This document shows, in pieces, positions 12,645 through 19,231 of a DNA stretch of 64,000 nucleotides. Numbering within the stretch: position 1 is the stretch's first letter; every line of letters starts with the position of its first letter. Made by a program: the position numbers and the translations under genes. The DNA comes from Thiobacillus sp. 65-1059. Its GTDB lineage: Bacteria > Pseudomonadota > Gammaproteobacteria > Burkholderiales > Thiobacillaceae. The DNA lies in assembly GCA_001897675.1 (NCBI GenBank), contig MKUE01000099.1, positions 1 to 64,000 of the forward strand, given 5' to 3'. The notes beneath the pieces were generated by a model. That model was not told where the DNA came from and searched no databases. It worked only from the letters and a program-made list of their open reading frames with translations.

Positions 12645-16288
<3,644 letters not shown>

Positions 16289-16382: not shown

Positions 16383-16520
16383 TATCTGGAAAGCTTCAAC
16401 GACATCTTTGCTGGCAGGCGATAGCTTTTGGATAAGAGCGGCTGAGCAGAATGTTGTTGTTACCGTCCGTTAATCGGCCTGAGCACCCTGTCAGACGGAG
16501 CGTCCCTCTCGAAGCGCGGG

Positions 16521-16808
16521 TTAGGCATCTGTGTAGCCACCATTTCTTTGCGCAGCTTGCTGTTTCTTTAGCTTCTCAAACTCGGAGAGGTCTTGTGCGA
16601 TTGAGACAAAGCCGAATTGGGCAACCAAGGTTGCTACGCAGAGGGCGATAAACATCAATATGCTGAACCAGTTCATGTCCAGAACCTCGAAGGTTTCCAT
16701 TTTGTAGTATTGCCTTGACGAGGAAATGAACCACATCATCGGAGTCCAGATGCCGAAGATGATGAATAGGCCGGTATAGCCGTAAAGTTTTTCGCGCCAT
16801 TTTTTCAT
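16521..16808 (-). CDS. small two-TM membrane protein of unknown function (integron cassette ORF)
   Basis: MKKWREKLYGYTGLFIIFGIWTPMMWFISSSRQYYKMETFEVLDMNWFSILMFIALCVATLVAQFGFVSIAQ...; flanked by GTTAGGC and GCCTAAC core sites; stop codon overlaps the GCCTAAC box. Confidence 0.65.
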   Translation of the reverse strand: MKKWREKLYGYTGLFIIFGIWTPMMWFISSSRQYYKMETFEVLDMNWFSILMFIALCVATLVAQFGFVSIAQDLSEFEKLKKQQAAQRNGGYTDA

Positions 16809-16825
16809 GGTTTCTTCCAGCACAT

Positions 16826-16891
16826 GCCTAACGTAGAAGTAACCGGCCTGCGCGGCTTTTCGCGCAGGTCCGGTTGACTGCCGGGTTGGGG
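16826..16891 (-). mobile_element. attC: attC recombination site (integron cassette 3' site)
   Basis: Minus strand: CCCCAAC CCGGCAGTCAACCGGACCTGCGCGAAAAGCCGCGCAGGCCGGTTACTTCTAC GTTAGGC; R''/R' boxes plus imperfect central hairpin AACCGG-CCTGCGCG/CGCGCAGG-CCGGTT. Confidence 0.75.
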
Positions 16892-16901
16892 GCAGAGGCG
16901 C

Positions 16902-17417
16902 TCATCTTGGTTTGACGGCAGGACAGTCTGTTGCATCGAAGACCACCATCGGAGCCCCCTTTTGCCCAAGGCTGCGAACGCCTTCTTCACGAAGCAAAGT
17001 GATTAGCTCTCGAATCTGGGCAGGCGACTGGTCGTGAATAAGCGAATCTTTGGGAGCGGTAAGAACGTTCACGAATTTGATGGTGATGGTGTTCGTGAGT
17101 GCAGCTTCCGACGATTTTTCGATACCAGTTCCGGCCTTCAAATTTCCAGTGGTATCACCAACCGGTTTGGAAAAGTCGATTGTCAATTGCCCGGAGTCTT
17201 TTGCAGACGCCGATAGCGCTAACCGTACTTCGACTTCGGAAGGAATTAGCCCAGTTGTAAGTCCTCTTTGTCCGTCGTACAGGCGCTTGATGCCGCACCC
17301 CACGCTATTCAGTGCTGCTTCAACCGTGACTTCATCGCGCTTTGCAATGTCGGCTGGTGTTATGGAGGCGCAGCCACCTACAAGCACGGCGAATGCAAAG
17401 AAAATTAAGAATTTCAT
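16902..17417 (-). CDS. predicted lipoprotein of unknown function (integron cassette ORF)
   Basis: MKFLIFFAFAVLVGGCASITPADIAKRDEVTVEAALNSVGCGIKRLYDG...; lipobox VGGC; cassette boundaries GTTGGGG (17457-17463, minus) and CCCCAAC (16885-16891, minus). Confidence 0.7.
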   Translation of the reverse strand: MKFLIFFAFAVLVGGCASITPADIAKRDEVTVEAALNSVGCGIKRLYDGQRGLTTGLIPSEVEVRLALSASAKDSGQLTIDFSKPVGDTTGNLKAGTGIEKSSEAALTNTITIKFVNVLTAPKDSLIHDQSPAQIRELITLLREEGVRSLGQKGAPMVVFDATDCPAVKPR

Positions 17418-17498
17418 AGGGATATTCCGATAGAAAGCGGCGAGCAGAATGGAAGCCCCCAACAGTTAATATAGAGACCCATGGGTCCGGATGTTTTT

Positions 17499-17571
17499 AA
17501 TAAAGAGACAGGATTTTTTAAGTCTATCATATTGATTTTTATATAGATGTTGCCCGAGCTGTCTCTTTATT
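17499..17571. repeat. 12-bp perfect inverted repeat AATAAAGAGACA / TGTCTCTTTATT with AT-rich interior
   Basis: Arms 17499-17510 and 17560-17571 in a low-GC non-coding segment. Confidence 0.5.
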
Positions 17572-17973
17572 ACGTTATGCAAAAGGAGACAGGGCTTGCC
17601 GGATTATTCACCTGATCATCTACCCGAACCATCAGGAACGGGCCTCATGTATGAGCGGCGTCTTCCGTGTCGTTGGGCCAAGTTCACTGGCTGCTCTTGA
17701 CCATCAGCTGACCTGATTCGGAGGTGTCAGGACAGGCCGCTTCGGCCGAATTACAGACCTTAGCGGCTGTCGCGCGTATCCGGCGAGGTAGGCATCGCTC
17801 GGGCATGCCAAAGACTGATGAGTCATTCCAGGTTGGCGAGAAAAGTGTAGGAATTTCGCGGGTATTTGGGAATGCGGAGCCGGTTATTCCCAAATTGGAT
17901 GAGAAAGCCCTTGTTTTATAGGGACCCGATTTCTCGCGAATTTTGGGAACCTACAAAATGCTGGCGTCAAGAT

Positions 17974-18026: not shown

Positions 18027-19169
18027 CTAGTTTTTCTTTGCTTCGACCGTCAGCCCGGCTTCCTTCCATTCCGGGAAGCCGCCGCGGAACCAATAGACGT
18101 TTTTCCAGCCGGCCTGGATCGCCATGGTGGCGGATTTGTAGCTCTTCCAGCAGATGGTGCCGTCGCAATACATCATGAAGGGGGCGTTTTTATCCTTGGG
18201 CAGCCGGTTCAGCGCGAACTGGTCGTCTGCCGGGTCGAAGCCGACTTCCTTGGCGCTGCCTTCATTGTAAGGAACGGAAATGGCGCCGGGGACATGGGCG
18301 GTTTCGTATTCTTCTTTCACCCGCACGTCGTAAACCGGCGTTCCTTTGGCAATCAGCGCCTGGGCCTCGGCAGCGCTGATGATCTTGGCGCCGGGCAGGC
18401 TGGTGGGCGTGGTATTCAGCATCGAGGCGACGCTTTTGAAATCGGCCCGGGTGGCGGTGGAGAGCGCGAGATTGAGGCTGTTGCTTTTCTGCAGGGTGGC
18501 GGCCAGCTTCTGCTGGGCGCCTGCGGATACGTTTTCGGACTGTACGGTCAGCGCGCGCAGCGGCACCGATGCGCCGGTGAAAACGATGCGCCCGCCGTTG
18601 GCCGCAGTCCAGGTTTTGGCCTCCTCGGCGGAGGCGACCGCCAGGTCGTAGCGGCCAAGCTTAAGCCCGTACAGCGGGGCCTCGGCCATGCGATGGAATT
18701 TGATTTCGGCAAAGTCGCTTTTGGCCAGCCCGCGGCTGTTGATCTCGCTGCGCGCCATGCTGCCCATCAGCGATTCGTAATCGGGAACGCCCAGCCTGGC
18801 GTGCGATTTGGCACCCAGCGTGCCTTTGTAATCCGGCCCCGACACGAAAGCGGCGGCGATCGTCGCGTTGGATTTGAGAATGGGCTCGAACTTGAATTTG
18901 CTGACGTTGGCGATCACTTGGGCGGGACCGAACACCATGTCCAGCGTGCCGTCCTTGGCGTGCTTGATGGCGGTAAAGCCGCGCGTGTAATACTGCAGCC
19001 GGACCGGCTGGCCGAGCGCCCGCTCGACCTCGTTGGTGAAGGCGCGGTAACGCTTGGTGGTATTGAAATCGGTGATCGATTCGTTTTGATCGAGTACCAC
19101 GCCGAGCGTGAGCGGTGCGGCCTGGACGACGGCCGAGACCAGAAGCAGGGGCAGGATGGCTAAACGCAT
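18027..19169 (-). CDS. PhnD-like periplasmic substrate-binding domain fused to a C-terminal rhodanese domain
   Basis: MRLAILPLLLVSAVVQAAPLTLGVVLDQNESI...AFTNEVERALGQPVRLQYYTRGFTAIKHAKDGTLDMVFGPAQVIA... then DVRVKEEYETAHVPGAISVPYNEG...MMYCDGTICWKSYKSATMAIQAGWKNVYWFRGGFPEWKEAG. Confidence 0.8.
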   Translation of the reverse strand: MRLAILPLLLVSAVVQAAPLTLGVVLDQNESITDFNTTKRYRAFTNEVERALGQPVRLQYYTRGFTAIKHAKDGTLDMVFGPAQVIANVSKFKFEPILKSNATIAAAFVSGPDYKGTLGAKSHARLGVPDYESLMGSMARSEINSRGLAKSDFAEIKFHRMAEAPLYGLKLGRYDLAVASAEEAKTWTAANGGRIVFTGASVPLRALTVQSENVSAGAQQKLAATLQKSNSLNLALSTATRADFKSVASMLNTTPTSLPGAKIISAAEAQALIAKGTPVYDVRVKEEYETAHVPGAISVPYNEGSAKEVGFDPADDQFALNRLPKDKNAPFMMYCDGTICWKSYKSATMAIQAGWKNVYWFRGGFPEWKEAGLTVEAKKN

Positions 19170-19231
19170 GGTCGTCTCCACGGGATGACGTGGAGTTTAA
19201 CGGTCAGCCATATGGAAAGTTTAATTGCGAT

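Follow-up and report, generated by a model that had tools for sequence, protein, structure and literature searches.

The question raised by this locus is how a pair of integron gene cassettes came to lie beside gyrB with no integrase gene next to them. The stretch analysed (the window) comprises the first 64 kb of contig C99 in a genome of 2.9 Mb and 143 contigs. The cassette block is flanked on one side by gyrB (13817-16288) and on the other by a rhodanese/phosphonate-binding gene on the minus strand (18027-19181). Read on the minus strand, the gap between these two genes contains, in order, GTTGGGG, a lipoprotein ORF, CCCCAAC, an attC site, GTTAGGC, a membrane-protein ORF and GCCTAAC. The initial annotation described the block as an AT-rich, CALIN-type cassette pair situated unusually close to oriC. 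Its composition agrees with that description: the GC content is 0.51 in the block versus 0.67 in the remaining window.

The search for attC sites used a covariance model trained on 11 Thiobacillus sites from outside the window. The 66 bp site at 16826-16891 (minus strand) scored 69.8 bits (E = 4e-15); the next-best match in the 64 kb window had an E value of 0.05, so that this site is the sole credible one. The same model gave 79 matches at E values up to 0.05 across 31 related loci. The site is complete, with an extrahelical base, and is identical at 56 of 66 positions to one attC of a cassette array on contig C72 of the same genome and at 64 of 66 to one in locus L186. It belongs to cassette 1 (16832..17462, minus strand), which extends from the GTT of attI to the GTT of this attC and has the leading box GTTGGGG at 17463-17457 and the trailing box CCCCAAC. 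Cassette 2 (16494..16831, minus strand) is truncated at its 3' end. Its leading box is GTTAGGC (16832-16826) and its trailing box GCCTAAC (16526-16520). The latter lies in the remnant of a second attC (16494..16526, minus strand), of which only the R'' box and the first arm survive; the sequence corresponds to the opening halves of attC sites from C72 and C139 and breaks off at 16494 after about 33 bp. This remnant gave no match to the covariance model. The cassette pair is thus real in sequence and coordinates, and running the model, as the initial annotation had proposed, gave a significant score for its 66 bp site. The paired core and trailing boxes that it reported are both present, but the second trailing box represents just the R'' half of a broken attC.

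Cassette 1 encodes a 172-residue predicted lipoprotein (MKFLIFFAFAVLVGGCAS...; 16902..17420, minus strand) and cassette 2 a 95-residue predicted membrane protein (16521..16808, minus strand; 100 residues from a GTG start). Neither belongs to any recognised family, in agreement with the earlier statement that their functions could not be assigned. Against Pfam, NCBIfam and PADLOC the lipoprotein gave no match and the membrane protein gave weak, sub-cut-off matches only; assignments of the latter to DUF4231 (E = 0.023), KwaA (E = 0.0097) or AmaP (E = 0.068) were rejected as falling below the cut-offs. No homologues of the cargo were found in 117 family genomes, and no match to Rfam at gathering scores was found in the window.

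No IntI is encoded in the window, as was first reported for tyrosine recombinases: the IntI profile matches other contigs only. A search of the remaining genome showed that it is not integrase-free. Contig C72 encodes a complete IntI (TIGR02249; 492 bits, cut-off 265) with its own array of about eight cassettes behind it. This intI is of a different subfamily from the one associated with the module described below, and the cognate integrase is therefore absent from the window's genome. A second attI of the C72 family is present on C139 (G000:C139:10964-10991, in L017) and is followed by cassettes with attC sites; no intI was seen upstream of it. Upstream of intI in loci L069-L097, repeated palindromic motifs lie near intI and attI, each IntI subfamily in Thiobacillus having a motif of its own.

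The cassettes are preceded by a left module of 289 bp (17749-17461, minus strand) that contains attI. Matches to this module occur in 36 of the 56 Thiobacillus genomes, with up to eight in one. About 60 matches end at attI, the weakest covering only 30-50 bp of the attI core; they stop at the cassette-junction GTT, and the left flanks of the copies are unrelated. In four copies (in G053, G031, G008 and a Halothiobacillus MAG) the module is split in two by intI, which is frameshifted in G008. Alignment of the window with these four copies places an intI deletion scar at 17652..17653 (minus strand). The same junction (type I) is common to eight copies, namely the window, L112-L117 and L119, which have modules of 289-294 bp and are drawn from six species (G000, G001, G008, G016, G026 and G034). 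A second junction (type II) is common to six copies with modules of 311-315 bp (L118, L121, L124, L125, L128 and L190). Each form goes back to a single loss of intI. The modules of L187 and L193 are shorter, and L186 retains no more of intI than its last 26 codons. In a tree of the attI modules the type I copies cluster (four changes versus 7.3 in shuffles, with none of 500 shuffles as low), and the window groups with L113, L115, L116 and L120. A scar common to unrelated sites is the kind of argument that is applied to MITEs. Most of the genomes are MAGs, in which repeats can break or misjoin contigs; the position of several copies deep inside contigs 100-430 kb long speaks against wholesale misassembly.

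The attI core (17461..17513, minus strand) ends at the cassette-junction GTT and occupies the same place beside intI in the intI-bearing copies. The core, ...GTCTCTTTATTAAAAAACGTCCGGACCCATGGGTCTCTMTATTAACTGTT, is shared by the first 20 copies compared, in most of which an attC-bearing cassette array follows. By alignment, the putative attI of the window is a homologue of the intI-adjacent site of intact copies, and the cassette is joined to it at the GTT. The core is 89-98% identical to those of the type I copies versus 77-83% for the remaining module. Among 32 copies the first cassette is common along its length in two pairs only (L190/L191 and L194/L198), and the first ORFs encode small or membrane proteins that are for the most part unrelated. 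Since the first cassettes differ and the core is better conserved than the remaining module, the simplest reading is that attI was kept in use after dispersal. Between the intI position and attI lies an inverted repeat, CTGTCTCCTTTT...AATAAAGAGACAG (17559..17592, minus strand), which is kept in all aligned copies; it is operator-like in form and may act as such. A scan for Pc found no sigma-70-like promoter, in a group whose promoters are uncharacterised; the cassettes would presumably be expressed from the platform.

Both ends of the unit were set by comparison with the dispersed copies, giving a mini-integron of 1276 bp (16474..17749, minus strand) that consists of a left end, the attI module, two cassettes and an eroded right end. 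Similarity between copies begins at the left terminal repeat TCGGCCGAAGCGGCCTGTC (17731..17749, minus strand), beyond which the flanks are unrelated; the left end of the dispersed copies reads TCGGCCGAAGCGGCC.... On the right, the copies have a conserved module of ~80 bp that begins with the GTT of the final attC and has GGCCGCTTCGGCCGA as its end. The window keeps just the last 20-29 bp of it, at 16474, where 23 of 29 positions fit the right-module consensus (an equally good fit was obtained in 3 of 2000 shuffles). The right terminal repeat placed by this consensus (16474..16493, minus strand) ends ...GGTGCTCAGGCCGA and matches the left terminal repeat at 15 of 20 positions. In the copies generally, the ends are imperfect inverted repeats of 15-20 bp, with 13-16 of the first 20 bases matching between the two ends.

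We infer that a transposition-like mover acted on these terminal repeats. No target-site duplication accompanies them, the bases adjoining the two ends differing in every copy checked, and no transposase or other mover was found, no transposase having been noticed in the intI-bearing copies, which carry intI and cassettes. The terminal-repeat pattern occurs no more often than its reversed control and is therefore useless in a search for a parent transposon. A clean empty site did not emerge from searches with the flanks joined: relatives keep one flank or the other, and in G028 the two flanks are separated by 8.5 kb of ordinary genes. No empty shell, with attI joined directly to the right module, was found. 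The border motif TCGGCC/GGCCGA is also present at the orthologous border of relatives carrying different inserts, which means that part of the terminal repeats may be a host intergenic motif. A longer intergenic motif, GACCGTC-N6-TCGGCC(G/A)AAGCGG, recurs at copy borders, at L132, L136 and L151 and elsewhere. Readings of the border motif (GTC-N6-TCGGCC) as a Tn916-like coupling sequence or as an Xer/dif-like site were considered and were set aside for want of further support. The 289 bp module was not found in plasmids or phages, nor the attI core in viral contigs. Beyond the genus, the module search of 369 genomes of the class matched one, the window's own; by exact pattern, the attI core is present in Halothiobacillus, Methylotenera and Methylophilus records.

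Our reading of the block, to which we assign a probability of roughly 0.8, is that it is an integrase-less, MITE-like mini-integron from which intI was deleted once, which then dispersed and which received its cassettes at attI through IntI acting in trans. Of these steps, the common deletion and the dispersal are shown, and the mover and the action of IntI in trans are inferred. The ancestral element would have consisted of a left terminal repeat, intI, attI, cassettes and a right module with its terminal repeat. Loss of about 1 kb including intI would have produced the left module of 289-294 bp with attI intact, and this deleted form, together with a second form with the other junction, would have reached numerous unrelated positions in Thiobacillus chromosomes. 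At its attI, each copy would then have acquired cassettes of its own, inserted either by an IntI in trans or by the IntI of an earlier host. In the window's genome, one copy may have landed in the gyrB-rhodanese gap and gained the lipoprotein and membrane-protein cassettes, and would afterwards have lost the 3' half of its last attC and most of its right module.

The dispersed modules could instead be old intergenic sites under vertical inheritance, reshuffled through homologous recombination of copies and host repeats, with no transposition. Some flanks are indeed orthologous across species while the inner DNA differs, the border motif also occurs elsewhere in these genomes, and the copies L119 (G001:C3) and L124 (G030:C34) share one left flank in two species with different deletion forms. 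Set against this are the up to eight matches per genome with unrelated flanks, the close copies L115 and L116 inside one genome (G034) and the pairing of a conserved right module with the left module; we therefore regard this alternative as unlikely.

A sedentary integron between gyrB and the rhodanese gene might also have lost intI in place, leaving a CALIN and no mobile mini-element. Loss of intI is the usual account of CALINs, for which off-target insertion and rearrangement have been proposed as further origins (PMC8618304). The gap itself offers some support. In G047 a complete integron lies directly beside, and downstream of, the same rhodanese gene (L063, G047:C61), in the orientation seen in the window, and the gap of G041 (L050, G041:C30) contains an inverted 5' intI fragment with attI, which is flanked by inverted copies of CGACCCTGGCCCCTTTGATTCC. 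The G047 integron is a different one, however: its intI is 66% identical to the C72 intI, and its intI and attI are of another family than the window module. Among its cassettes are pairs of small ORFs resembling toxin-antitoxin genes. In four related species the gap is bare (76-77 bp), and G009, which is the closest relative and whose rhodanese protein is 99% identical, lacks the block and has other DNA in the gap, so that the comparison downstream of gyrB gave no sign of a vertically conserved block. The window scar is common to seven copies at unrelated loci, which contradicts loss in place and implies that intI was lost before the element arrived at gyrB. Loss in place is accordingly improbable. 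The gap is an insertion hotspot in Thiobacillus, with unrelated inserts of 1.3-4.2 kb in at least six species (loci L049-L068). Since it receives unrelated inserts in many species, the complete G047 integron among them, the proximity to oriC looks incidental.

It is very improbable that the resident C72 IntI put the two cassettes into an attG-type genomic site beside gyrB: an intact IntI is present in the genome and attG insertion, which likewise places cassettes outside the main array, is established according to Loot et al. 2024 as cited in PMC12901181, but the cassettes of the window join at the GTT of a conserved attI, found beside intI in intact relatives, and not at a random genomic site, which contradicts this origin.

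The integrase-less mini-integron favoured here was compared with known systems. It resembles a CALIN in having attC cassettes with no intI nearby, and to this extent the original classification holds. It differs in keeping a conserved attI platform, overlooked in that classification, in having one complete attC and one truncated one where IntegronFinder 2 by default calls a CALIN from at least two attC sites (PMC9024848), and in a deletion scar common to copies at unrelated loci. With sedentary chromosomal and mobile integrons it shares attI, cassettes and attC, and its intact relatives have a TIGR02249 IntI at the expected place; unlike them it has its intI deleted and is a small unit with terminal repeats that is present in several copies per genome. 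Its likeness to MITEs and other non-autonomous transposons lies in being an internal deletion derivative with imperfect terminal inverted repeats and many dispersed copies, whereas it has no known transposase parent and no visible target duplication and retains an integron docking site as its core function. Gillings et al. 2009 reportedly described a class 1 integron flanked by MITE-like structures (IMU elements) that move the complete integron. That case also links integrons with MITE-like ends, but there the flanking elements move a whole integron, whereas here a small intI-less platform is itself the element. No description of dispersed integrase-less attI platforms was found in the openly accessible literature searched. 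Outside class 1 integrons, attI sites are poorly described and go undetected by IntegronFinder 2 (PMC9024848); with a non-class-1 attI and a single-attC array under the CALIN threshold, blocks of this kind are missed by annotation.

These results suggest that integrons can spread as parasitic mini-elements. More tentatively, and with somewhat less than an even chance in our estimate, Thiobacillus may hold a network of dispersed integrase-less attI docks, in which a transposable mini-element is filled in trans by any IntI present, so that platform and integrase would have become separate and the integron platforms would behave like MITEs. The family would represent a further route to integrase-less cassette clusters, in which a single intI deletion is followed by dispersal of the attI platform and the scar remains traceable, and it would supply natural multi-copy attI sites on which the action of IntI in trans can be tested.
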